DNA from: Hyphomonadaceae bacterium ML37 | GTDB taxonomy: Bacteria; Pseudomonadota; Alphaproteobacteria; Caulobacterales; Maricaulaceae | Direction of reading: 5' to 3' | DNA: 64,000 bases | Assembly (NCBI GenBank): GCA_027627685.1 | Contig: CP091241.1 | Span: 434,001-498,000, forward strand | Part shown: positions 10,309-58,462 of the stretch, in pieces | Position numbering within the stretch: position 1 is the first letter of the stretch | Layout of the letters: each line of letters opens with the position of its first letter | Notes under the pieces: model-generated | The model's input: the letters and a program-made list of their open reading frames with translations, nothing else | The model's database searches: none | Told to the model about the DNA's origin: nothing | Made by a program: the position numbers and the translations under genes

Positions 10309-13143
10309 ATGCCCCTGAACGACACCGAAAGCGCCAAGAGCGCCCGCCTGCCCGGCACGCCGGATCAGCTGGCGGCCTTCTGTCTGGAGGCGCTGGCCGG
10401 CGGATGGGGCGAGGACTGGGATGCGCCGCTGGTCAATCCGGTGGGCGATCTGGCCGCCCAGCTCTTTTCCGGCCTGCGCCGGGGCGCGGTGTCGGTGGAG
10501 GGGCTGAAAGCCCTGATCCAGCATTTCGCCGATGACGGCCTGGCGGCGCGGGCGAGGGCGCTGTCAGCGCTGCATGGCGACGGGTTGTCGGGCGCCGCCG
10601 AAGCGGATGTGCGCGGCCAGCTTGAGGCGCTGGCGGGGGAAGGGTTTGACGCCTTTGCCGCTGCGGTGACGCGCAAGCGCGGCGGCGTTGTCTTCACCGC
10701 CCATCCGACCTTCGCCTTGTCGCGAGCCGTGCGCGATGCGCTCGCCAGCGCCGCCGTCACTGGCGAGGCCGGGGCGCTGGTGGGCGCGGGCCATATCCAC
10801 GGGCCGGATGAGGATGTCACCCTCATCAACGAACATGACGAGGCCATGGCCGCCGTGGAGGCCGCTCGCGAGGCGCTGACCGGTCTCAACGCCCTGGTGC
10901 TGGACGTGGCGCGCGCCGCCTTCCCGGACCGCTGGCGCTCGCTCGATCCCGACCTCATCTCGCTGGCGAGCTGGGTGGGATATGATCTTGATGGCCGCAC
11001 CGATATTCACTGGGGCCGCTCCATCGCCTTTCGCCTGCAGGAAAAATCCCGCCAGCTCATGCGCTATGCGGCGCTGATCGAGGCGTCGGGCGCTGCTGAG
11101 CTGGACCCGCTCGCCGCCCGCCTGCGTGCAGCCGCCGAGGCGAGCGCAGGGCATGCGGCGCTGTTCGAGGCCGATCTGGATGACCCCTCGGCTGTGGTGC
11201 GCGCCGCCAATGCGCTGACGGTGGAGTATCCAGAGCGCCTGACCAGCCTGTCGGGACCCATCGCTGAACTGGACCGCGCCATCGGCGATGCGGACGATGA
11301 CGTGGCGTCTCGCCTGGTCCTCCTGCGCTCGGAGATGAAGGCGGCGGGGCTGGGGGCGGCGCATATCCATCTGCGCATCAACGAGGCCCAGCTGCGCGGC
11401 GCCGTGCGCGCCGATCTGGGGCTGGAGGATGACAGTGATGATTTCGGGCGCCTGGCCCTCACCCGCGCCGCAGAGCGGGCGGCGGAGGCTGAGGTGCGCA
11501 CGGTCAGCTTCGCCTCGGTCTTCCTGGAGCAGATGACGGCCCGGCGCCAGTTCATGCTGTGCGCCCAGCTTATCAAGCACGTGGACAGCGACACGCCCAT
11601 CCGCTTCCTCATCGCCGAGTGCGAAACCGCGGCCACGGTGATGGGGGCGCTTTATCTGGCGCGTCTTTATGGCGTGGCCGATCGGGTGGACATCTCGCCC
11701 CTGTTCGAGACGCCTGAGGCGCTGGAGCGCGGCGGACGCCTGATCGAGCGCCTGCTGGCCGAGCCGGTCTATCGTGATTACATCGCCGGGCGAGGGCGGC
11801 TGGCCATCCAGCTGGGCTATTCGGACTCGGGCCGTTTCATGGGTCAGGCGGGCGCCCAGCTCGCCATTGAACGCCTGCACATCCTCACCGCCCGGGCGCT
11901 GGCGCGCTATGGCGTCAAGGGCGTGGCGGTGGTGGTGTTCAACACCCACGGCGAATCCATGGGGCGCGGCGCCCATCCCGGCGGCTTCAACGAGCGGCTG
12001 GACCATTTGCTGACCCCCTGGGCGCGCGGCAAGTTCGCCGCCGCAGGCGCGCCGGTGATCCACGAGACCAGCTATCAGGGCGGGGACGGGTTTTTGCATT
12101 TCGCCCGGCCCGAGCTGGCGCGCTCGGTGATGATGTCGACCGCCCGCCATTTGCTGGCCGAGCCCGGCGCCCCGCGCGGCGATCCCTTCTATGGCGAGAT
12201 CGACTACACCTGGGACGTCTACCGGTCGCTCAAGGCCTGGCAGGAAGCCCTGTTCGACAATGCTGATTACCGCACGGCGGTCACGGCGTTTGCGCCCAAC
12301 ATGCTGGCGCGCAGCGGCTCGCGCCGGGCCAAGCGGCCGGGCGCGCCGGGCCAGAGCCTGGATCTGTCCATGCTGCGCGCCATCCCGCATAACGCGGCGC
12401 TGCAGCAGCTCGGCATTCCGGTGAATGTGTCCGGCGGGCTCGGCGCCGCCATTGGATCAGAGCCTGAACGCATGGCGGCGTTTCTGGAGCGCTCGCCGCG
12501 TATGGCGGCCCTGCGCGGGATGATTTCGCGGGCGCGCACCCTGACCAGTCTCAATGCGCTGCGCGGCTATGCCCGCCTGTTTGACGCCAGCGAATGGACC
12601 GGCCGGGCGGCGGCGGCCCAGTCCGAAGCCGCCGAGCGGGCCTTTCTGGCGCTGGCCGGGCGCCTCTCCGACCAGTCGCGCCAGACGGCGCTGACCCGGC
12701 TCAGCAATCATCTGTCGGCGGATCTGATGCGGTTTGACCGCATCGCCGACGGGTCGGACCATGCCTGGCGGGACGATCCCGACCGGCGCGCGGTGGAGGC
12801 GCTGCACGCCATCCGCCAGGCGCTGATCATGCAGGCCTTCCTGACCATTTCGCGCCTGCCGGCGTTTTCACGCCGCCATGATCTGACACGCGAGGACCTG
12901 ATCGATCTGGTGTTCGCCCTGCGCCTTCCCGAAGCGGTGACTGCGCTGGAGGAGATTTTCCCCGCCGCGCGCCCCGGCCTGGAATTACTGGACGCGGTGG
13001 AGGAGCAGACCGGCGCCGACGAGCCGGCGCGGCGCGGATACCCGGAGATACAGGCGCGCATCGTCCAGCCGCTGGCCGAGCTGCACCCGATGATCGGCCA
13101 GATCACCGTGGCGATCAGCCATTATTACCGGGCGTTCGGCTGA
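10309..13143 (+). CDS. ppc: Phosphoenolpyruvate carboxylase family protein with altered active-site motifs
   Basis: A 944-residue homologue of PEP carboxylase, the anaplerotic enzyme making oxaloacetate from PEP and bicarbonate. The TAHPT motif is present (His at residue 132). Other catalytic motifs diverge. GYSDSAKDAG of the family is GYSDSGRFMG (~residues 503-512), so the usual Lys is Arg. The FHGRGG..GRGG loop is replaced by NTHGESMGRGAHPGG (~545-559), keeping the His and the second Arg but losing the first Arg. SGSRRAKRPG and LRAIPHN are partly conserved, and the chain ends in Gly as in the family. It may be a divergent but active PEPC or a related enzyme. An ATG after a short intergenic region sets the start. 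Confidence 0.8.
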   Translation: MPLNDTESAKSARLPGTPDQLAAFCLEALAGGWGEDWDAPLVNPVGDLAAQLFSGLRRGAVSVEGLKALIQHFADDGLAARARALSALHGDGLSGAAEADVRGQLEALAGEGFDAFAAAVTRKRGGVVFTAHPTFALSRAVRDALASAAVTGEAGALVGAGHIHGPDEDVTLINEHDEAMAAVEAAREALTGLNALVLDVARAAFPDRWRSLDPDLISLASWVGYDLDGRTDIHWGRSIAFRLQEKSRQLMRYAALIEASGAAELDPLAARLRAAAEASAGHAALFEADLDDPSAVVRAANALTVEYPERLTSLSGPIAELDRAIGDADDDVASRLVLLRSEMKAAGLGAAHIHLRINEAQLRGAVRADLGLEDDSDDFGRLALTRAAERAAEAEVRTVSFASVFLEQMTARRQFMLCAQLIKHVDSDTPIRFLIAECETAATVMGALYLARLYGVADRVDISPLFETPEALERGGRLIERLLAEPVYRDYIAGRGRLAIQLGYSDSGRFMGQAGAQLAIERLHILTARALARYGVKGVAVVVFNTHGESMGRGAHPGGFNERLDHLLTPWARGKFAAAGAPVIHETSYQGGDGFLHFARPELARSVMMSTARHLLAEPGAPRGDPFYGEIDYTWDVYRSLKAWQEALFDNADYRTAVTAFAPNMLARSGSRRAKRPGAPGQSLDLSMLRAIPHNAALQQLGIPVNVSGGLGAAIGSEPERMAAFLERSPRMAALRGMISRARTLTSLNALRGYARLFDASEWTGRAAAAQSEAAERAFLALAGRLSDQSRQTALTRLSNHLSADLMRFDRIADGSDHAWRDDPDRRAVEALHAIRQALIMQAFLTISRLPAFSRRHDLTREDLIDLVFALRLPEAVTALEEIFPAARPGLELLDAVEEQTGADEPARRGYPEIQARIVQPLAELHPMIGQITVAISHYYRAFG

Positions 13144-14368: not shown

Positions 14369-17300
14369 TTACCAGTCCATATCCTCTTCGTATCCCAGAT
14401 CGATCAGCGCCTGGCCGTAGCGCTCCTTGAACGCCTCGCGAATTCTCGAGGTGAAGTTCTGGGGCCAGGGGCTGGACCCTGGGTTGGCGTGCGTGCTGGC
14501 CAGGTCGATACCCGCCACGTCGGGCACGTTCAGGAAGCGGGCGATCTGCTCCAGATGCGCGGCTGGTCTGGCGGCGAAATCCTCCAGACGCAGGGTCAGC
14601 ACCCGTTCGTCGTCGAAAGGCGCCAGCAGCAAGTCCTCGATCACGTGCTTCGAGATATTGTCCAGCTCATACAGGATCCCGTCTTCCTTGGACAATTCGT
14701 TGAGGATCGGTTTGTCCTGCTTGAGCTGATCCCAGACCCAGCCGTTCAGCTCGGTATGGTGGTCACCCTTGTGGTGGAAATAGTTCGAAATCAGCACCTG
14801 ACGCGGGTCGCGGATGATCCGAAGACCCCGCCAGTCGCCAGCCGTGCGCCGGATCTTGTCGAGGCTGCGCTGTGTCGCGTTCGCAAACAGGACGACATCG
14901 CGGCCGTTCTGGCCGAGGTCCGAAAAATCGATATTGGGCAGATCCAGATCGTCCAGCCGCGAATAATGGTGCGGCGGATTGGCGATCTTGTAGCTGCGCA
15001 CCCGTGCGCCGGTGCTTTCCGCGATCCGGCCAAAAACCTCATTGCGGAAGAACCTGGAGCCGCATTTATGGTGACCGAAGAACACGAACACGTCCGGTGC
15101 ATCGGGGTATTTGATGGCGCCGATCTGGCGTTCGGCCGCAGTCACGCGTTCCTGAAGCATGGTTCCGGTCTTGCGGAACGTGCTGACGGTCTTCTGTGTC
15201 CCGGTGGCGATTTCCAGCGCCTGCTTGGACGTGGTCTGAAGGGCCGCGAGCGGCGCCTTGACGTCTGCATCGAGAATGGAGCGCAGGGTGTCGATTTCCC
15301 GGCGCAGCTTGGCGTCTGATTCACCGGCGGTCATCGCAACCGCTTCGAACCGTTCAGTGAGCCTGCCGATGGATTCCGCCGTGGCCTCGTCCACTTCGGC
15401 GCGCAGCCGCTGTTCGAGGCCCTGGCGGATCGCTTTGAGCTCTTCGCGAAGCGCGTTGTCGCCCTGAGTGGCGGCTGAATGCGCCGACAGCGCTTCGGCT
15501 TCGGCTCTTTTCAGCGCCTGTTGCATCGCCTCAATCTGTTCGCGCAGCTCGGCTTCGCGCTGTTTGGCGGCTTGCGCCGCCCGGCCGAAGCTTGCAGTCG
15601 TCACAGCGGCGCGTGCACTGAGTTTTTGTTCGAGAGCCGCCTGCAAACTCGCCAGCTCGTCCCTCAGCGCTGTGGCTTTCGCCGAATTGTCGTCCGACAG
15701 GCGCGCTTCAAGCGCCGAAAGCTCGGCCCGCAAGGCCGCCTCACCGCCGATGAGGGCATTTCTGCCAGCCTCGGCTATCTGGCCTTTCAAGGCGTTCGCG
15801 ATCCGGGCCTGCTCGGCTTCAAGGCGCCCCAACTCGGCGCGCAGAGGGGCCTCGGCGCCCGATTGCGCCGCCTGGCTGGCGCGCGCGATTTCCTCTTTCA
15901 GCAATTCGGCGGCTCGGGCCTGCTGGGTTTCCAGCCTGGCCAGCTCACCGCGCAGATCGGTCTGGGCGCCCGAGCGCGCGGATTGCGCCGCGCGCGCGAT
16001 TTCCTCTTTCAGTGCGTTGGCAGTTTGGGCCTGCTCGCCTTCAAGACGCTCCAGTTCGCCGCGTAGCTCTGCGGCCGAGCGAGATTGCGCCGCCTCACTG
16101 GCGCGCGCGATTTCGTCCTTCAGGGAGTCCGCCGTGCGCGCTTGTTCGGCTTCCAGTTTCGCCAGTTCTGCGCGCAAGTCCGACTCGGCTCCCGCACGCG
16201 CAGCCTCGCTGGCTCGAACGATTTCGTCTTTCAACAAATCGGCCGTGCGGATCTGTTCAGCCTCCAAACGCGCCAGCTCGGCGCGCAGCGTGTCCTCGGC
16301 CCCCGAGCGTGCGGCCAGCCCAGCCTGCGCGATCTCTTCCTTGAGCGCCTGCGCGGCACGGGCCTGCCTGGCTTCAAGACGTGTAAGCTGAGCGCGCAGA
16401 ACGGCTTCTGCGTCCAGCCGGGCCGCCTCGCCCGAACGGGCAATCTCGCCCTTGAGCGTTTCTCCGGTGCGCGAAATCTGGACTTTTAGCGTTTTCACGG
16501 TTCGCAGCTGCTCGTCATTGAGCGCTATCAGCCGGTCTTCGAGATCGCGCGTAGAGCGTGCCTGGGCGCCCCCGTACTGAACCAGACGATCATCAAAATC
16601 ACGCTGGTCATTCACCAGGCGCTCAACACGTCTTTCACGCCCGGCGGCCAGCTCGTGAATGCGGGCGATATCGTCGGCCAGCCGCCGGTTTTCGGCCGAC
16701 AGGGTCTGGACGGCCCGCCGCAGCCGCCAGCCCAGCGCGCCCAAGCCGATCAGAAGACTGGCGCCCAGCAGGGCTCCGGCCAGAACCAGGCGTGATCCGA
16801 GCAGCCCGGGTCCCAATGCGGCGAAGGCCAGAGCGGCGAGGGCGGCAAGCCCGGCGATTGCGAGAAGAGTCGATCCGCCTGCGCGCCAGAGCGTGCGGCG
16901 GGTGTTCTGCAGTGTGGGAAACAGGCCGGGCGCGAGGCGGCGCAGGGCGTCGCCGGCCGGCGCGTACCAAGGCCGGCTCAACGGGGGCCGGGGCGGGGTC
17001 AGGCCGGCAGGCTCCACGACCGTTCGATCAGCGTGGCCTGACATCTCGCGTTCCTGAGCGGGACGTTTATCCGGCGCGCTTCCCTGAACAGGGCGCTGTG
17101 GGGCTGGAGTTTCCTGATGGAGCACGTGCACGTCGCTGGGCCGGGGCGGCGGCGGTGTGTCAGGTTGTGTGCGCCGGACCGGCTTGGGCAGCCCGCCTGC
17201 GCCGGACGCCGAAGCATCCACGACGAGCTGACGCAGCGTCTCTTGCAGCGTATCGAGATTGTGGTTCTCGAAAGCGAAAGTCCGCGCAGCTCGGCCCAGC

Positions 17301-19270
17301 GCCTGACGACGGCCCGGATCGTTCATCAGGTCCACCAGGGCGCGTTCCAGAGCGCCTTCGTCTTCCTGATCGACCACCATGCCCAGGCCATTGTCTTTGA
17401 GATAGCCGATGGTGGCGGCGTCTGCCGGGCCATGGGCCAGAAGCACTGCGCCGGAGGCGAGGCACTCAGGCATTTTATTGGCCATGGAATAGCGCACATA
17501 GCGCAGCGTGGCCTCGTCGAAATTATAAGCGATGACCACCGCGTCCGCGCGGCGCAGCCATTCGCGGTAGACGTCCAGAGGGCGCGTCTCGTCGGTCACC
17601 GAGGTGAACTCAAAACCCGAAAAATCGTCCTTCGCCTCGCGCAGCCACCAGGGCTGGGTGTTGATCTCCAGCGATACGGCGTTTCCGGCTTTGCCAAGCC
17701 TCTCCACGGCGCGCGCCAGACGCAGGACGCTGGCGCGCTGCATGTTAGCGGCCAGTCCGCCGGCATAGCGGATACGCAAACGCCGCCCGGAGTGTGGCGC
17801 GCGCTCCGGCCAGTCGCTGATGCGCACGCCATTGGCCAGCGGTGTGAACGGAGCGCCGTAACGCGCTTCAAACGCCGAAGACATCGACTCGCAGATCGAC
17901 AGGCGCGCCTGGGCGTGTTCGAGCAGGAGGTTGAGGTCCGGCTCCAGAACGCGCCATTGCTCGGGATCGCGCTCGGCCAGATCGCGCGGCCAGTCATCCA
18001 TCACCCAGGCCACGACCGGCTTGCCAATCTCGTGCAGCAGGGACATCGCCAGGGAATGCAGCCACGGCATGTCAGGCACCGGGCGGTACAGCACCGCGTC
18101 GGCGTCAAAGCTCAGCGCGGCGTCGCGGGCCGCCTGTTCCGAGCAGGGCTTGGTGACGTATCCTCCAGACCCGTCCGGCTTCGACAGGGCGAGCCCGTCC
18201 TTGCCGTGACGCGCGATCTGCAAGAGCTGGTCCGCGGGCCAGCCGGCAAACAAATTGGCCTTGATCTCGCCGGTGGCGGTGCCGTTGGCGAACGGCGTCA
18301 TGTCGAGCATCAAAAGGCGCGGATAGCGTCGCAAATGGCCATTGGCCTTGACGTCTTCAGGCGAGCGCGCATGCGGAAACAGGTCGTGGAAAGGCCGCCG
18401 CTCGAACACCTCAAGCTGGCCGCCAATGCCGGCGTTGTAGATCATCTGGCCGGTGCCTTCGAGCGTCCGGCGCGCCTCGGTATAGGCTTCCACCATCTTG
18501 TCGACCTGCGGGTCGTGCCAGCGGAAGCCCTTGCCGAAATAGTTCGGATCGAAATGGTTCGGGTCATCGGACTTCATGTCCAGAACCCCGACCCCGTAAT
18601 CCTTGCTTTCCTTCGCGTCTTCAGGGATCGCGTAGCTGGCGTCGACGCCGATCAGGTAAATTTCCTCGAAGCCGAGATAGGCCGCGATCTGCATCATCGA
18701 GAAGGTGACAGTGCACCCCGTGTAGGTGATCTTGTCGGCTTCCATGGAGAAATCGAAGCCGTGCGGATAGCTTTTGCGCGGGCGGTGATTGTAGAAAACC
18801 GTGTCTTCATCGGCCTCGAACATATAGCCCAGATAAGCCGGGAACAGCTTGATCGGGCCCTTGAACTCGTTGATCCACGCGGCCCGGTCTTCGGCGACCA
18901 GATGGTCTTCGACCAGATAGAAGGTGGGCTTCCAGTCAAGATCCTTGGCTTTCAGGAAGAAGCCGTTCACCGCGAAGGTCACTTCGTCTTTCAGCACTGA
19001 CAGATCGGTTTCGTTCAGGCTGGGCCCGTTGCCGATCAGGAAGCAGCGCTTGCGCCCCTTGAACTGCTCGCGCAGCGCGCGCAGGCGCGGGCGATAAACC
19101 GCGTCGAGATCGTGTTTGTAGATCTGGATGACATGGCGGACGCCGCGGATCTTGTCCTCGAGCGGGATTTTTTCGGTGGGCAGATAGATCGGCGCCCGGC
19201 TTGGCAGTTTCGCCAGCAATTCCTGATATTCTTGCTCTTGCGACGTCATGCCCATCGAAAGCTGTGTCAT
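14369..19270 (-). CDS. Giant multidomain protein: DUF115/MptE-like domain, GT-B glycosyltransferase, TM hairpin, repeat coiled coil, sulfotransferase
   Basis: A single 1633-residue frame. Residues ~60-310 form a DUF115/MptE-like domain (FLIGNGPSLNETDL; YTGCTVTFSMMQIAAYLG), related to Maf flagellin glycosyltransferases. Residues ~315-680 are a GT-B transferase (DMTPFANGTATGEIKANL; GGLAANMQRASVLRLARA; the nucleotide-sugar end MANKMPECLASGAVLLAHGP). A Pro-rich linker follows (~685-770). Two hydrophobic helices (~800-818, ~826-847), flanked by Arg, form a hairpin with both ends cytoplasmic. Residues ~850-1385 are coiled coil, including six 37-residue repeats (958-1179). Residues ~1388-1633 are a sulfotransferase with a PAPS P-loop (GHHKCGSRFF) and a 3'-phosphate site (RIIRDPRQVLISNYF). 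Inferred role: making and sulfating a surface glycan or glycoprotein. A terminator-like hairpin separates it from upstream galE. Confidence 0.85.
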   Translation of the reverse strand: MTQLSMGMTSQEQEYQELLAKLPSRAPIYLPTEKIPLEDKIRGVRHVIQIYKHDLDAVYRPRLRALREQFKGRKRCFLIGNGPSLNETDLSVLKDEVTFAVNGFFLKAKDLDWKPTFYLVEDHLVAEDRAAWINEFKGPIKLFPAYLGYMFEADEDTVFYNHRPRKSYPHGFDFSMEADKITYTGCTVTFSMMQIAAYLGFEEIYLIGVDASYAIPEDAKESKDYGVGVLDMKSDDPNHFDPNYFGKGFRWHDPQVDKMVEAYTEARRTLEGTGQMIYNAGIGGQLEVFERRPFHDLFPHARSPEDVKANGHLRRYPRLLMLDMTPFANGTATGEIKANLFAGWPADQLLQIARHGKDGLALSKPDGSGGYVTKPCSEQAARDAALSFDADAVLYRPVPDMPWLHSLAMSLLHEIGKPVVAWVMDDWPRDLAERDPEQWRVLEPDLNLLLEHAQARLSICESMSSAFEARYGAPFTPLANGVRISDWPERAPHSGRRLRIRYAGGLAANMQRASVLRLARAVERLGKAGNAVSLEINTQPWWLREAKDDFSGFEFTSVTDETRPLDVYREWLRRADAVVIAYNFDEATLRYVRYSMANKMPECLASGAVLLAHGPADAATIGYLKDNGLGMVVDQEDEGALERALVDLMNDPGRRQALGRAARTFAFENHNLDTLQETLRQLVVDASASGAGGLPKPVRRTQPDTPPPPRPSDVHVLHQETPAPQRPVQGSAPDKRPAQEREMSGHADRTVVEPAGLTPPRPPLSRPWYAPAGDALRRLAPGLFPTLQNTRRTLWRAGGSTLLAIAGLAALAALAFAALGPGLLGSRLVLAGALLGASLLIGLGALGWRLRRAVQTLSAENRRLADDIARIHELAAGRERRVERLVNDQRDFDDRLVQYGGAQARSTRDLEDRLIALNDEQLRTVKTLKVQISRTGETLKGEIARSGEAARLDAEAVLRAQLTRLEARQARAAQALKEEIAQAGLAARSGAEDTLRAELARLEAEQIRTADLLKDEIVRASEAARAGAESDLRAELAKLEAEQARTADSLKDEIARASEAAQSRSAAELRGELERLEGEQAQTANALKEEIARAAQSARSGAQTDLRGELARLETQQARAAELLKEEIARASQAAQSGAEAPLRAELGRLEAEQARIANALKGQIAEAGRNALIGGEAALRAELSALEARLSDDNSAKATALRDELASLQAALEQKLSARAAVTTASFGRAAQAAKQREAELREQIEAMQQALKRAEAEALSAHSAATQGDNALREELKAIRQGLEQRLRAEVDEATAESIGRLTERFEAVAMTAGESDAKLRREIDTLRSILDADVKAPLAALQTTSKQALEIATGTQKTVSTFRKTGTMLQERVTAAERQIGAIKYPDAPDVFVFFGHHKCGSRFFRNEVFGRIAESTGARVRSYKIANPPHHYSRLDDLDLPNIDFSDLGQNGRDVVLFANATQRSLDKIRRTAGDWRGLRIIRDPRQVLISNYFHHKGDHHTELNGWVWDQLKQDKPILNELSKEDGILYELDNISKHVIEDLLLAPFDDERVLTLRLEDFAARPAAHLEQIARFLNVPDVAGIDLASTHANPGSSPWPQNFTSRIREAFKERYGQALIDLGYEEDMDW
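15734..16399 (-). repeat. Six in-frame tandem 111-bp (37-residue) coiled-coil repeats
   Basis: Six consecutive units of exactly 111 bases inside the giant gene each encode a 37-residue segment. The pattern is LRAELxRLEAEQARxAxxLK, then EEIARAxxAARSGAExx. No unit has an insertion or deletion. A diverged seventh start (LRAELSALEARL) follows at 15733. Units differ in sequence, so these are old duplications rather than a fresh expansion. Confidence 0.9.
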
Positions 19271-19297: not shown

Positions 19298-19322
19298 AAA
19301 AAAACCGGCCCGCCGGGCGGGG
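19298..19322 (-). terminator. Terminator-like hairpin downstream of galE
   Basis: Read on the minus strand, a very G/C-rich hairpin-forming stretch (CCCGCCCGGCGGGCCGG) is followed by seven T. It lies between the galE stop and the start of the giant gene, so it would partly uncouple the two. Confidence 0.55.
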
Positions 19323-19401: not shown

Positions 19402-20391
19402 TCATATTACACTCCGCTCGCGCAGCGCCTGCTCCCAGGCCCATGCCGAAGCGACAATGCCCGTCAGATCATCGTGGCGCGGCGCCCAGCCCAGTTCGCG
19501 CTTCAGACGGTCTGCGCCGGCGACGATCGCAGCCGGGTCGCCTGGACGGCGCCCCGTTTCGCGCACCTCGAAATCGACCCCCGAGACGGCTTTGACCGTA
19601 TCGATCACTTCGCGCACGCTGGCGCCGCGCCCATAGCCGCAATTGAGCGTGACGCTGCCATGTCCGGCGCGCAAGCGGGCGAGCACCATGGCGTGGGCGT
19701 CCACCAGATCACTCACATGAATATAGTCGCGTACGCAGGTCCCGTCACGCGTGGGATAATCGGTCCCGAACAGATCCAGGCGCTCGCGCAGCCCCAGGGC
19801 CGCCTGGCAGGCCGCCTTGATCAGATGGGTGGCTCTTGCGGTGGACTGGCCGGCGCGGCCCTGCGGGTCGGCGCCCGCCACGTTGAAATAGCGCAGGACC
19901 CCGAACTCCATCGCGCCGGCGGCTGCAGTGTCGGCCAGCATCCACTCGGTCATCAGCTTGGAGCGGCCATAGGGCGAAAGCGGCGCCAGGGGCGCGTCCT
20001 CGCTCACCGGTTCGTCGCCCGCCATGCCGTAAACCGCCGCGGTGGAGGAGAAGATGAAACGGGTCACGCCACAGGCTGCCGCCGCGTCGATGAGATTGCG
20101 CGAGGCGGCGGTGTTGTTGGCGTAGTAGCTCAGCGGATCAGCGACAGAGTCCGGCACCACCACTGATCCAGCGAAATGGATGATGTCGGTGATGGCGTGT
20201 TCTGCGATAAGTCTGGAAACAAGCGCCATGTCCCCGGCGTCGCCGCGCACAAAAGTGGCGCGCTTGTCCACCGCCCAGTCAAATCCGGTGACCAGATTGT
20301 CCAGAACAGTCACGCGCTCGCCTGCATCAAGCAGGGCCAGCGTCATGTGGGCGCCGATATAGCCTGCGCCGCCTGTCACCAGAACAGTCAT
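19402..20391 (-). CDS. galE: UDP-glucose 4-epimerase
   Basis: An extended SDR enzyme of 329 residues that interconverts UDP-glucose and UDP-galactose with bound NAD. The N-terminus MTVLVTGGAGYIGAHM is the NAD-binding glycine motif. The catalytic Ser/Tyr/Lys are in FIFSSTAAVYG and SPYGRSKLMTEW (YxxxK), and HVSDLVDAHAM and NCGYGRGASVREVI are family motifs. GGGGGACGG precedes the chosen ATG; the frame runs further upstream without support. It lies upstream of the giant glycosyltransferase-sulfotransferase on the same strand and probably supplies UDP-galactose for surface glycans. Confidence 0.95.
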   Translation of the reverse strand: MTVLVTGGAGYIGAHMTLALLDAGERVTVLDNLVTGFDWAVDKRATFVRGDAGDMALVSRLIAEHAITDIIHFAGSVVVPDSVADPLSYYANNTAASRNLIDAAAACGVTRFIFSSTAAVYGMAGDEPVSEDAPLAPLSPYGRSKLMTEWMLADTAAAGAMEFGVLRYFNVAGADPQGRAGQSTARATHLIKAACQAALGLRERLDLFGTDYPTRDGTCVRDYIHVSDLVDAHAMVLARLRAGHGSVTLNCGYGRGASVREVIDTVKAVSGVDFEVRETGRRPGDPAAIVAGADRLKRELGWAPRHDDLTGIVASAWAWEQALRERSVI

Positions 20392-20555
20392 CCGTCCCCC
20401 AGTTTCGCCCCCCCCGGGCGGCCTGCCTGCGTGCAAGCGGGCCGTTCAGCCTGCTTGGTAACGCCCATCGTACAAGGGTTCAAGCCGGAATGCGCCCGGT
20501 GGCGGACCGGTGTACAGAACACGCGTCTGATGGTCTGGTGCGGGCAGCAGGAATC

Positions 20556-54618: not shown

Positions 54619-55685
54619 CCGATATCACCCGGGACAAGCCCGCCGCCGGGATCGGCCTGTTTGAAAAATGGCTCTCTGTCTGGGTGGCGCTGGCGATTCT
54701 GGCCGGGGTTGGTCTGGGCTATGTGTTTCCCGGCGCGTTCAATGGGCTGGCGGGGCTGGAATACGCCTCGGTGAACCTGCCCGTGGCGGTCCTGATCTGG
54801 GCCATGGTCTACCCGATGATGATCAGCGTGGACTTCACCAGCCTCGCCCGGGTGAGCGACAAGCCCAAGGGGTTGGTCATCACCCTCGTCGTAAACTGGT
54901 TGATCAAGCCTTTTTCCATGGCGGCTCTGGCGGTGGTGTTCTTCGAGTTTGTCTTTGCACCCTTCATCGAGCCCGAAGACGCAACACAATACATTGCCGG
55001 GCTGATCCTTTTGGGCGCCGCGCCATGCACCGCCATGGTGTTCGTGTGGTCCCAGCTCACCAAAGGCGACCCGAATTACACGCTGGTGCAGGTGGCGGCC
55101 AATGACGTCATCATGGTGTTCGCCTTCGCGCCGCTGGTGGCGATCCTGCTGGGGGTCACCGATATCGCCGTGCCGTGGGACACGCTGATTCTGTCGACGG
55201 TGCTGTATGTGGTGATCCCGCTGGCCGCCGGCATCGCGACGCGGCTGTGGCTGACGCGCGGGCTGGCCAGGCCGGACGGCGAGTCGCGAGTCGCGGCTTT
55301 CACGTCCCGCGTCAAACCGGCCTCAGTCATCGGGCTGATCGCGACGGTGGTTTTGCTGTTCGGCTTTCAGGGCGATGTGATCCTGGAACGCCCGCTGGTC
55401 ATCGCCATGATCGCGGCGCCGCTGCTCATTCAGGCCTATGGTATCTTCGCCATCGCCTATGCGGCGGCCTGGGCGTGGAAGACGCCGCATCGGATCGCGG
55501 CGCCCTGCGCGCTGATCGGCACATCGAACTTCTTCGAGCTCGCCGTGGCGGTGGCCATCGTCATGTTCGGGGTCAATTCCGGCGCGGCGCTCGCCACTGT
55601 GGTGGGCGTGCTGGTGGAGGTGCCGGTGATGCTGTCGCTGGTGGCGCTGGCCAACCGCACGCGGCGCTTCTTCCCGGAGGCGTGA
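54615..55685 (+). CDS. arsB: ACR3 family arsenite efflux transporter
   Basis: A 356-residue inner-membrane antiporter with ten predicted helices. ACR3 hallmarks are [53 protein letters not shown] (the conserved Cys) and [18 protein letters not shown]. It exports As(III) made by ArsC, using proton exchange. The gene overlaps arsC by four bases and arsH starts six bases after its end, so the three form one operon. Confidence 0.95.
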
Positions 55686-55690
55686 AGTCC

Positions 55691-56413
55691 ATGACCGCTG
55701 ATCCAAACGATACGCCGCAAATGGACGAGGACAGCTTCCGCACGCCCGAACCGGACCGGCTGTTCCCGCCCGTGCGCGCCACCCACCGCCCGCGCATCCT
55801 CCTGCTCTACGGATCGCTCAGGGAGGTGTCCTACAGCCGTCTGGCGGCGGAGGAAGCGGCGCGTATTCTGGAGCGGCTGGGCGCGGAGACGCGCTTCTTC
55901 AATCCGTCGGGACTGCCCCTGCCCGACGGCGCCGAGGCCAGCCATCCCAAGGTGGCCGAGCTGCGCGAGCTGGTGACCTGGTGCGAGGGCATGGTGTGGT
56001 CGAGCCCGGAGCGCCACGGCGCCATGACAGGCGTCATGAAATCCCAGATCGACTGGATCCCGCTTTCGCTGGGCGCGGTGCGGCCCACGCAAGGCAAGAC
56101 GCTCGCGGTGATGCAGGTCTGTGGCGGGTCGCAGAGCTTCAACGCTGTCAATCAGCTGCGCGTACTTGGCCGCTGGATGCGGCTGATCACCATTCCCAAC
56201 CAGTCCTCCATCGCCAAGGCCTGGCAGGAATTCGGGCCGGATGGACGCATGCGTCCCTCGCCCTATTATGACCGGATCGCCGATGTGATGGAGGAGCTCA
56301 TGAAATTCACGCTCCTGACCCGCGACTGCGCCGATTATCTCGTGGACCGGTATTCCGAACGGAAGGAAACGGCCGAGGCGCTGATGGCCCGGGTGAATCA
56401 GCAGGCTTTGTGA
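55691..56413 (+). CDS. arsH: ArsH, NADPH-dependent organoarsenical oxidase/reductase
   Basis: A 240-residue flavodoxin-like FMN protein. The FMN loop is [34 protein letters not shown], the [22 protein letters not shown] stretch and [25 protein letters not shown] are ArsH signatures. The enzyme oxidises trivalent methylarsenicals and can reduce quinones. GGAGG ten bases before the ATG supports this start over a GTG nine bases earlier. It is the last gene of the arsenic operon. Confidence 0.95.
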
Positions 56414-56488
56414 GGCGCGGCGTCCCTCACGCCTCGACACCGGGGCATGTCGCGCACTAGCATCGCGCTCCAGCCTTGGGAGCACCCC

Positions 56489-56839
56489 ATGATCCTCGCC
56501 GCCTTCGCCTCCGCCGCCCTTCTGTCCACTGCCGAAGCGCCCGGATCCTATGAGCTGCGCCTTGAAGAGCGGGTGTGCCGCGTCGTGCTGGATGCGCCGA
56601 GCGCTGCGCCGGAAGGATCGTTGGTCACCGTCGATGGCGCCGCCGGCCTTGCGATGGCCTTCCCAGATTGCCCGGCGGGGCTCGATGAGGCGGCGTTCTG
56701 GCGCCTCAACACAGAAGACAGCGTGCTGACCCTGTTTGATGGTATGGGCGGCGTGCTGATGACTGCCGCCCCGGACGAGCTGCGCGGCTGGGCGGGCGAG
56801 ACCGCCAGCGGGGCGCAGGCGCAGCTGTCGCGCCGCTGA
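56489..56839 (+). CDS. AprI/Inh-like secreted protease inhibitor domain protein
   Basis: A 116-residue protein. A signal sequence (MILAAFASAALLSTAEA) is followed by a small beta-barrel domain with the Inh/AprI pattern: CRVVLDA, then MAFPDCPAGLDEAAFWRLNTEDSVLTLFDGMGGVLM, including the disulfide Cys pair. Such inhibitors block astacin-/serralysin-type proteases in the periplasm. GGGAG precedes this ATG; an earlier in-frame ATG lacks a signal. No cognate protease is adjacent. Family assignment is by visual pattern. Confidence 0.6.
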   Translation: MILAAFASAALLSTAEAPGSYELRLEERVCRVVLDAPSAAPEGSLVTVDGAAGLAMAFPDCPAGLDEAAFWRLNTEDSVLTLFDGMGGVLMTAAPDELRGWAGETASGAQAQLSRR

Positions 56840-56956
56840 GCGCACGCGCGCGCCCAGCCTCGACAAGACGCGGCGCCAGCGGCTAAACCGGCCCGGATAA
56901 TCATCGAACAAAACAAAAGACGCCGCCCGCCAGAGGCGGCGCAAGGAGGAAGCCCC

Positions 56957-58462
56957 ATGTCCGGCCCCCGCGAAATTCCCCACTACATCAACGGCCAGCG
57001 CCTCGCCGGGACGTCGGGCCGTCACGGCGATGTGTTCGACCCCAATACCGGCGCGGTGCAGGCGCGCGTCGGGCTGGCCAGCGCCGCAGAGCTGGGCGAG
57101 GCCGTGGCTGCCGCCAAAGCCGCCCAGCCGGCCTGGGCCGCCACCAATCCGCAAAAGCGCGCGCGCGTCCTGTTCCGCTTCAAGGAGCTGATGGAGCGCG
57201 AGATCGATGACCTGGCGCATTTGCTGGCCACCGAGCACGGCAAGGTGGTCGCTGACGCCAAGGGCGATATCCAGCGCGGACTGGAAGTGATCGAGTTCGC
57301 CTGCGGCGTGCCGCACCTGATGAAGGGCGAGTACACTGAAGGCGCCGGTCCCGGCATCGATGTGTATTCCATGCGCCAGCCGCTGGGCGTGGCCGCGGGC
57401 ATCACCCCGTTCAACTTCCCCGCCATGATCCCGATGTGGATGTTCGGCGTGGCCATCGCCTGCGGCAACGCCTTCATCCTCAAGCCGTCGGAAAAAGACC
57501 CCAGCGTGCCGCTGCGCCTGGCCGAGCTGATGACCGAGGCGGGCCTGCCTGATGGCATCCTCAACGTCGTCCACGGTGACAAGGAAGCGGTGGACGCCAT
57601 CCTGCACCACCCTGACATCAAGGCGGTGAGCTTTGTGGGATCGTCCGACATCGCCCAGTACGTCTATGTGACCGGCGCGCAGAACGGCAAGCGCGTGCAG
57701 GCCATGGGCGGCGCCAAGAACCACGCCGTCATCCTGCCCGACGCTGATCTTGACCAGGTGGCGCGCGACCTCATCGGCGCCGCGTTCGGCTCGGCCGGCG
57801 AGCGCTGCATGGCCCTGCCTGTGGCGGTGCCGGTGGGCGACAAGACCGCCGATGCGCTGATCAGGAAACTCCTGCCCGAGATCGAGAAGCTGGTCCCTGG
57901 CGCTTCCACCGATCCCGATGCGGCCTATGGTCCGGTGGTCTCCGCCGCCCACAAGGCGCGGGTGGAAAGCTATATCCAGATGGGCGTGGACGAGGGCGCC
58001 GAGCTCATCGTGGACGGGCGCGGCTTTGCCTTGCAGGGCTATGAGAACGGCTTCTTCATCGGGCCGAGCCTGTTCGACAAGGTGCGTGCGGATATGCGCT
58101 CCTATCAGGAAGAGATTTTCGGCCCCGTGCTGCAGATCGTGCGCGCGCAGGATCTGGAAGAAGCCGCGCGCCTGCCCAGCGAGCACCCCTATGGCAATGG
58201 CGTGGCGATCTTCACCCGCAATGGGCTGGCGGCGCGCGAGTTCGCCTCCAAGGTCAATGTGGGCATGGTGGGCGTGAACGTGCCGATCCCGGTGCCGGTG
58301 GCCTATCATACCTTTGGCGGCTGGAAGCGGTCTGCCTTTGGCGACACCAACCAGCATGGCATGGAAGGGGTGCGCTTCTTCACCAAGATCAAGACCGTCA
58401 CCCAGCGCTGGCCCACCGGCGAAGTGACGGATCAGGCGTTTGTCATTCCGACGATGGGGTAG
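56957..58462 (+). CDS. mmsA: Methylmalonate-semialdehyde dehydrogenase (CoA-acylating)
   Basis: An ALDH-superfamily enzyme of 501 residues that oxidises methylmalonate semialdehyde to propionyl-CoA, or malonate semialdehyde to acetyl-CoA, in valine, thymine or inositol breakdown. The N-terminus has HYINGQRLAGTSGRHGDVFDPNTGAVQ. GVAAGITPFNFPAMIPMWMF is the family motif. NAD binding uses SFVGSSDIAQYVY. The catalytic Cys is in GSAGERCMALPVAV, and FGDTNQHGMEGVRFFTKIKTVTQRW is the typical end. AAGGAGG precedes the ATG. It stands alone, without mmsB or other valine genes. Confidence 0.95.
   Translation: MSGPREIPHYINGQRLAGTSGRHGDVFDPNTGAVQARVGLASAAELGEAVAAAKAAQPAWAATNPQKRARVLFRFKELMEREIDDLAHLLATEHGKVVADAKGDIQRGLEVIEFACGVPHLMKGEYTEGAGPGIDVYSMRQPLGVAAGITPFNFPAMIPMWMFGVAIACGNAFILKPSEKDPSVPLRLAELMTEAGLPDGILNVVHGDKEAVDAILHHPDIKAVSFVGSSDIAQYVYVTGAQNGKRVQAMGGAKNHAVILPDADLDQVARDLIGAAFGSAGERCMALPVAVPVGDKTADALIRKLLPEIEKLVPGASTDPDAAYGPVVSAAHKARVESYIQMGVDEGAELIVDGRGFALQGYENGFFIGPSLFDKVRADMRSYQEEIFGPVLQIVRAQDLEEAARLPSEHPYGNGVAIFTRNGLAAREFASKVNVGMVGVNVPIPVPVAYHTFGGWKRSAFGDTNQHGMEGVRFFTKIKTVTQRWPTGEVTDQAFVIPTMG

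Follow-up and report, generated by a model that had tools for sequence, protein, structure and literature searches.

A giant protein of Hyphomonadaceae bacterium ML37 joins glycosyltransferase modules, a membrane hairpin, a helical rod and a sulfotransferase cap, and its relatives keep the hairpin and rod while exchanging the enzymes at both ends

The window analyzed here, a stretch of 64,000 nucleotides from the genome of Hyphomonadaceae bacterium ML37, contains a gene (14369 to 19270, minus strand, ATG start at 19270) that codes for a protein of 1633 amino acids. Its domains follow the order DUF115/MptE-like, GT-B, Pro-rich linker, hairpin of two transmembrane (TM) segments, helical rod of about 550 residues, and C-terminal sulfotransferase. 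The gene is real and its chassis is conserved, and the swapping of caps and modules adds interest beyond the original prediction made for this DNA. That prediction overlooked the exchange of N- and C-terminal modules, the variation at one locus, and the parallel with coiled-coil rulers and terminators of O-antigen synthesis, as these are described in the sections of PMC11231755 cited here. We see about an even chance that the protein works as a polymerase-ruler-terminator, assembling a glycan by means of one membrane-anchored polypeptide.

Results

The gene and its surroundings

The minus-strand frame is free of stops through all 1633 amino acids, and the plus strand has several stops between 14369 and 19270. 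When compared with the homologue in genome G091, substitutions fall mostly at the third position of codons, both in the N-terminus (0.089, 0.047 and 0.296 at the three positions) and in the cap (0.069, 0.049 and 0.348), with a weaker bias in the coil (0.323, 0.242 and 0.495). Judged by these substitutions, the codon pattern of the N-terminus and the cap is that of a gene under purifying selection. Upstream of the giant gene lies a gene for an NAD-dependent epimerase (19402 to 20436, minus strand), matching Pfam Epimerase and GDP_Man_Dehyd, that we read as galE. A terminator-like stem-loop with a T-run (19298 to 19321, minus strand; -8.4 kcal/mol, folded as the native sequence only) separates the two genes, yet both are absent together from the corresponding site of G094. 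Elsewhere in the window, a frame of 966 amino acids (55457 to 58357, minus strand) gave nothing in Pfam at E<=1e-5 and appears to be antisense.

N-terminal enzyme modules

The DUF115/MptE-like domain (Pfam PF01973) occupies residues 50-310 (18341 to 19123, minus strand), with a Pfam match at residues 54-214 scoring 45.8 bits against a cut-off of 34.6. It carries the motif GNGPSL at residues 80-85 (19016 to 19033, minus strand), which it has in common with the Maf/DUF115 flagellin glycosyltransferases and with CstII-type sialyltransferases; here, context and partner modules point instead to a polysaccharide. CstII-type chains fill 7 of the 12 rows matched by profile A3 in alignments that span both conserved motifs, at non-significant E-values (0.07-0.36).

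The following domain (residues 315-690; 17201 to 18328, minus strand) is assigned to the GT-B glycosyltransferases from a Foldseek search, from a Pfam score for the GT-B family Glyco_trans_1_4 that lies below the cut-off (15.3 against 27), and from non-significant matches of the DUF115-GT profile to GT-B structures. The AlphaFold model of residues 1-700, built from a shallow alignment of five sequences with a mean pLDDT of 53, gave 171 Foldseek matches at E<=0.001 when searched as a whole. The best 50 of the 171 are mostly GT-B-fold enzymes, PimA, MshA and WaaG among them, which reach a probability of 1.00 on this low-pLDDT query and have low TM-scores. A GT-B fold is consequently predicted by this model for the N-terminal part.

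Membrane hairpin and rod

The anchor module (16727 to 16990, minus strand) consists of an RPWYAP segment, the hydrophobic stretches TM1 (residues 802-818) and TM2 (residues 828-844), and a nine-residue loop between them. In raw counts, with the loop shorter than the 20-residue flanks, all 23 hairpins compared have 3-6 Arg/Lys in the flank ahead of TM1 and 0-2 in the loop; after TM2, Arg/Lys outnumber those of the loop in 20 of the 23 and equal them in the other three. Because the flanks are thus richer in Arg/Lys than the loop, a location of both ends of the protein in the cytoplasm is supported. PAPS, SAM and nucleotide sugars are cytoplasmic.

Residues 857-1389 (15104 to 16702, minus strand) form a helical rod that, from its hydrophobic periodicity, is a probable coiled coil. 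From TM2 to the cap it measures 549 residues, or about 81 nm if it is one continuous helix. Its hydrophobic period of 3.68 residues (peak 15.7, against 6.8 for the 95th percentile of shuffles) is nearer to a hendecad than to a heptad coil, and that of a relative, L051, peaks at 3.5. Between 15804 and 16306 (minus strand) TRF finds 4.5 copies of a 111-bp tandem repeat, equivalent to 37 residues, whose self-identity is 0.308, compared with at most 0.169 in 200 shuffles. By helical periodicity, an extended coil separates the glycosyltransferase modules from the distal enzyme, and we infer that the rod pairs into a coiled coil. Among 19 proteins the distance from TM2 to the cap ranges from about 136 to 719 residues, the start of the Methyltransf_24 caps being set by ad hoc motifs.

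The sulfotransferase cap

The C-terminal cap comprises residues 1390-1633 (14372 to 15103, minus strand). Sulfotransfer_1 matches residues 1483-1583, the C-terminal half of the domain, with 22.2 bits in the whole protein (cut-off 22) and 28.0 bits in the excised cap, and all seven aligned caps match this family at E<=0.01 (best E 1.5e-10). The cap is 62-66% identical to six caps from outside the genus. The segment FGHHKCGSRFFR (15044 to 15079, minus strand), which we take to be a putative 5'-phosphosulfate loop, is invariant in 11 of 12 columns in the seven caps. RDPRQVLISNY (14780 to 14812, minus strand), presumably a 3'-phosphate-binding motif, was located in the aligned caps and aligns with SULT chains in matches that are not significant. 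With a cap model from a shallow alignment of three sequences (pLDDT 45), Foldseek returned no sulfotransferase among the 50 matches listed. The genome encodes APS kinase, and therefore PAPS can be made.

At the level of Pfam, then, the giant protein is a member of both DUF115 and Sulfotransfer_1. Structures of WbbB and WbdD exist in the PDB; neither was matched when PDB sequences were searched with the whole protein and with the profiles for the cap, DUF115-GT and MTA. The original prediction had proposed a single uninterrupted frame, naming no strand, and had listed the same domains, which Pfam (DUF115, Sulfotransfer_1) and Foldseek (GT-B) support. It had also placed both enzyme ends in the cytoplasm by means of the hairpin, in agreement with the Arg/Lys pattern of the 23 hairpins, and had described an arm of up to about 80 nm, which the 549-residue rod provides if the helix is continuous.

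Distribution and exchange of modules

Among 398 genomes of the order, 18 (own included), belonging to 8 of 59 genera, match hairpin profile A1, and nine, again including our own, match cap profile A6 at E<=1e-20. Eight of these nine cap matches lie in frames of 888-2391 amino acids and one in a free frame of 261. Among 385 genomes of the class the cap profile matched only our own, so that, in the genomes sampled, proteins with a sulfotransferase cap appear to be confined to this order; the broader hairpin profile A8 gave our genome and a weak match in G555 (E 9.4e-6). Among viral contigs, the cap profile search found no relative. A scan of named genomes gave six loci, in Alkalicaulis satelles, two Oceanicaulis MAGs, an Alphaproteobacteria MAG (two loci) and a MAG labelled Rhodobacterales, that of Alkalicaulis satelles being of the MTA type (described below). 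By these matches, the chassis of hairpin, rod and cap is present in four families of the order, with varied N-terminal sets. A fusion private to this assembly, which the original prediction had named as grounds for discarding it, is consequently not what is seen, and the search it had advised for the same domain order in relatives finds the chassis outside ML37, with ends that vary.

Nineteen proteins combine hairpin, rod and an assigned cap, modules being assigned by module queries and Pfam: nine have a sulfotransferase, four a methyltransferase-like cap (MTA) and six Methyltransf_24. MTA is read as a methyltransferase from motifs and weak Pfam matches (to Methyltransf_24 in two of the four, best E 0.0099). 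Outside the family, sulfotransferase caps occur in G255, G257, G216, G260 (its N-terminus cut off by the contig), G168 and G237, Methyltransf_24 caps in G208, G356 and G201, and an MTA cap in G224; further Methyltransf_24 caps, within the window's family, are those of G018, G055 and G011. The whole protein of G257 scores 19.2 against Sulfotransfer_1, below the cut-off of 22, yet its cap is 66% identical to that of the window. Over 1607 residues the proteins of G208 and G216, which belong to one genus, match at 83% identity, and beyond this point the first ends in Methyltransf_24 and the second in a sulfotransferase. As judged from such alignments, the chassis is modular: between relatives, glycosyltransferases and caps are exchanged and the rod changes in length.

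Two related frames depart from this plan. A gene of G093 (L053:828-6053) has the reversed order Methyltransf_24, coil of about 690 residues, DUF115 and GT4, with no TM segment. Our own genome has at about 2.81 Mb a second protein, a GT2-DUF115 of 727 amino acids (L055:8311-10494) with a related hairpin (E 5e-8), a short charged tail and no cap, and a CMP-sugar synthetase-like gene lies within about 3 kb of it. Separately, an open frame of 5726 amino acids (L056:1343-18523) lies in G055, at a distance of about 25 kb from the giant gene there.

One locus with several versions

The PEP carboxylase (PEPC) gene of the window, at 10309-13143, served as anchor and is matched in only 6 of 15 genomes of the genus, the other nine being uninformative. 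In five of the six, our own included, the giant gene sits between galE and the orf142-PCD-PEPC side. In the sixth, G094, folD, orf142, PCD and PEPC are kept there but galE and the giant gene are both missing, so the genus locus appears as five versions of the giant gene and one empty site. The window's version is DUF115-GTB-hairpin-coil-sulfotransferase (1633 amino acids). That of G089 has an N-terminus like the window's, with 86% identity over 699 residues, and differs in its cap, which is MTA. G091 has DUF115-GTB-DUF115-like-GT4-hairpin-coil-sulfotransferase (2378 amino acids), G090 has DUF115-like-GT4-GT4-DUF115-like-FkbM-hairpin-coil-sulfotransferase (2382 amino acids), and G085 has DUF115-like-GT2, two further modules, hairpin, coil and MTA (2105 amino acids). 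The DUF115-like labels in G085, G090, G091 (second copy), G011 and G224 come from motifs or BLAST and not from Pfam. In G089 another giant gene occurs close to another copy of galE, and G090 and G085 each have a separate DUF115-GTB gene of about 800 amino acids outside the slot.

Exporters and sugar genes

Genes for Wzm/Wzt (ABC-2) exporters lie within about 6 kb of the giant gene at ten loci, nine of them outside the genus. The five sulfotransferase-capped systems with a linked Wzt (L097, L098, L101, L130 and L131) all have a Wzt of 250-278 amino acids without Wzt_C, whereas the five Methyltransf_24 systems (L049, L051, L100, L132 and L053) all have a Wzt of 412-603 amino acids matching Wzt_C, a carbohydrate-binding module (CBM), in three of them below the Pfam cut-off (25.5, 19.5 and 23.1 against 30.4). 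Cap type and Wzt_C are associated with a Fisher p of 0.008, relatedness being ignored. This tally of ten covers the nine of the 19 capped hairpin proteins with a linked Wzt, plus the reversed, hairpin-less L053, whose gene in G093 lies 3.5-6 kb from Wzm and the CBM-bearing Wzt; L132 is counted under Methyltransf_24 though a free sulfotransferase gene abuts its Wzt. It omits the sulfotransferase-capped window, L040, L042 and L096, with no linked Wzt in the stretch, the four MTA caps, L046 and L095, which lie near contig ends and have no Wzt in the sequence covered, and L052 and L106, which have a CBM-less Wzt and no assigned cap. For nine of the 19 capped proteins, the stretch of sequence covered contains no Wzt.

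By Pfam, our own genome has no Wzt_C exporter; an ABC-2 pair without Wzt_C lies at about 2.617 Mb, away from the giant gene, and similar exporters also occur in members of the genus without a giant gene. No exporter adjoins the giant gene in the five slot genomes. Wzt_C is found in 2 of the 15 genomes of the genus, G093 and G094, neither of which has a hairpin-type giant gene. GDP-sugar or CMP-sugar genes accompany several of the related loci. CMP-sugar synthetase-like genes, a family named from one member (CTP_transf_3), occur in 17 of 41 stretches, equivalent to 15 of 25 genomes, and in the slot genomes they are not near the giant gene.

Discussion

The polymerase-ruler-terminator reading is favored because the anatomy of the protein matches that of published O-antigen systems, in which, as far as the cited sections describe them, the enzyme that ends the glycan is placed at the far tip of a coiled coil, with the polymerase in the same or another chain, and in E. 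coli O9 and Klebsiella O12 the length of the coil was shown to determine that of the glycan (PMC11231755). The conserved chassis, the swapped caps, the variable slot, the exporters near ten loci, the APS kinase gene and the CMP-sugar synthetase-like genes also count in its favor. In the mechanism we propose, the DUF115 and GT-B modules would add sugars, probably a CMP-activated keto-sugar in the case of DUF115, to a glycan chain carried on a lipid, on the cytoplasmic side of the inner membrane. The hairpin would anchor these enzymes at the membrane and send the polypeptide back into the cytoplasm, where the rod would hold the sulfotransferase up to about 80 nm away, so that only glycan chains of sufficient length could reach it. 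PAPS-dependent sulfation of the free glycan end would then halt growth and mark the chain, and an ABC-2 exporter would carry the finished product out. We infer the enzyme activities, the donor sugar, the termination and the ruler action.

In its presumed working the protein is likened to WbbB and WbdD; it is not filed with them because recognition by a CBM was not found and no sequence similarity was seen. WbbB, of Klebsiella O12 and Raoultella terrigena, is described in the cited sections as a single-chain polymerase with a coiled-coil ruler and a β-Kdo terminator (PMC11231755). Here the order is reversed: the glycosyltransferase modules come first and the cap last, with a TM hairpin separating the glycosyltransferases from the rod, and the cap is a sulfotransferase. 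As in the WbdD/WbdA system of E. coli O9a, an enzyme would be carried by the end of a coil bound to the membrane, the rod is of variable length, and methyltransferases, recalling the methyltransferase-kinase WbdD, occur among the alternative caps. WbdD, however, is described in those sections as membrane-associated through an amphipathic helix and as recruiting a separate polymerase, whereas the giant protein has an integral hairpin, and the Wzt CBM that checks the end group in the WbdD system (PMC11231755) is absent by Pfam from our own genome. Klebsiella O7 ORF6 (methyltransferase-kinase, coiled coil and two GT2) likewise unites terminator, coil and glycosyltransferases in one chain, in reversed order and with different enzymes; the partial description of it at hand mentions no TM hairpin. 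The integral anchor, the reversed order and the predicted sulfotransferase cap set the protein apart from WbbB and WbdD. In the open-licence literature we found no coiled-coil O-antigen ruler or terminator with a sulfotransferase; Mann, Kimber and Whitfield 2019 may list some.

What speaks most strongly against the polymerase-ruler-terminator reading is the missing CBM. Also weighing against it are the slot genomes with no exporter beside the giant gene, the similar exporters in members of the genus that lack this gene, the nine capped proteins with no Wzt nearby, the lack of resemblance to WbbB or WbdD, and the Foldseek outcome for the poor cap model. Because our own genome and all five sulfotransferase-capped systems with a linked Wzt lack a Wzt CBM, the classical checkpoint of the end group is missing, and in our own genome, without a Wzt_C exporter, the cap may therefore only decorate. 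In the strongest rival, which we consider rather unlikely, the cap would sulfate a growing or finished glycan or add an optional end group, the rod providing reach and not length. Its strength comes from Klebsiella serotype O1, where, according to the cited sections, a terminal pyruvate goes with a CBM-less exporter and is unnecessary for chain length or export (PMC11231755). The CBM-less Wzt of these five sulfotransferase-capped systems agrees with such a decorating role, as do the free sulfotransferase relative (36% identical) that abuts Wzt and Wzm in G201, besides a giant gene capped with Methyltransf_24, and the giant proteins of L102, L103 and L104, which have no cap and stop in the coil. 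Beside two of these capless genes lie separate genes (L102:3271-5022 and L104:558-2684) with a GMHRSGTS motif, sulfotransferase-like as judged by eye, which are a possible cap in trans. Against a mere decorator, alternative caps occupy the distal end of one rod, the position of the terminators described in the cited sections of PMC11231755.

DUF115 is a domain of Maf enzymes, and 5mu5, which we take to be a Maf structure (titled uncharacterized protein), is among the PDB matches at non-significant E-values. Maf enzymes decorate flagellin with nonulosonic acids or Kdo, according to the part of PMC11339370 used here, so the protein could glycosylate flagellin or another protein that is sulfated afterwards. 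We regard this as improbable, since ABC-2 exporters accompany ten related loci and GDP-sugar or CMP-sugar genes several, and the FkbM, GT2, GT4 and several DUF115-like modules per chain suit a glycan polymer. The original prediction is supported in its domain content, topology, arm and surface-polysaccharide role, the building and sulfating of such a polysaccharide being the likeliest use; its emphasis on flagellin and Maf gained no support, and flagellin was rejected as the leading idea, because the genomic context seen favors glycan export. That the gene is a mosaic of decaying or randomly fused pieces with no joint function is very improbable. Module content is very variable, the coil diverges fast, and there are stops inside a few related matches (G109, G067, the second match in G356, and G095), as a mosaic would predict; on the other hand, the N-terminus and cap show the purifying pattern, caps keep their 62-66% identity outside the genus, several families retain the chassis, and the 19 capped frames are open, if by construction of the frame-finder.

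The polymerase-ruler-terminator reading has a tentative extension, possible and on balance doubtful, in which the cap would be a plug-in for the chain end on a measuring rod: sulfation and methylation would be interchangeable endings, the type of cap would decide whether the exporter senses the end, and swapping at a fixed locus would make the cell surface differ from one close relative to the next. If these readings are true, sulfation would be added to the ways in which bacteria end and measure their surface polysaccharides, and the whole polysaccharide job would sit in one membrane-anchored chain. Furthermore, the natural pairs with swapped caps, 83-86% identical elsewhere and found in harmless environmental bacteria, would let experiments separate terminator chemistry, rod length and exporter recognition.
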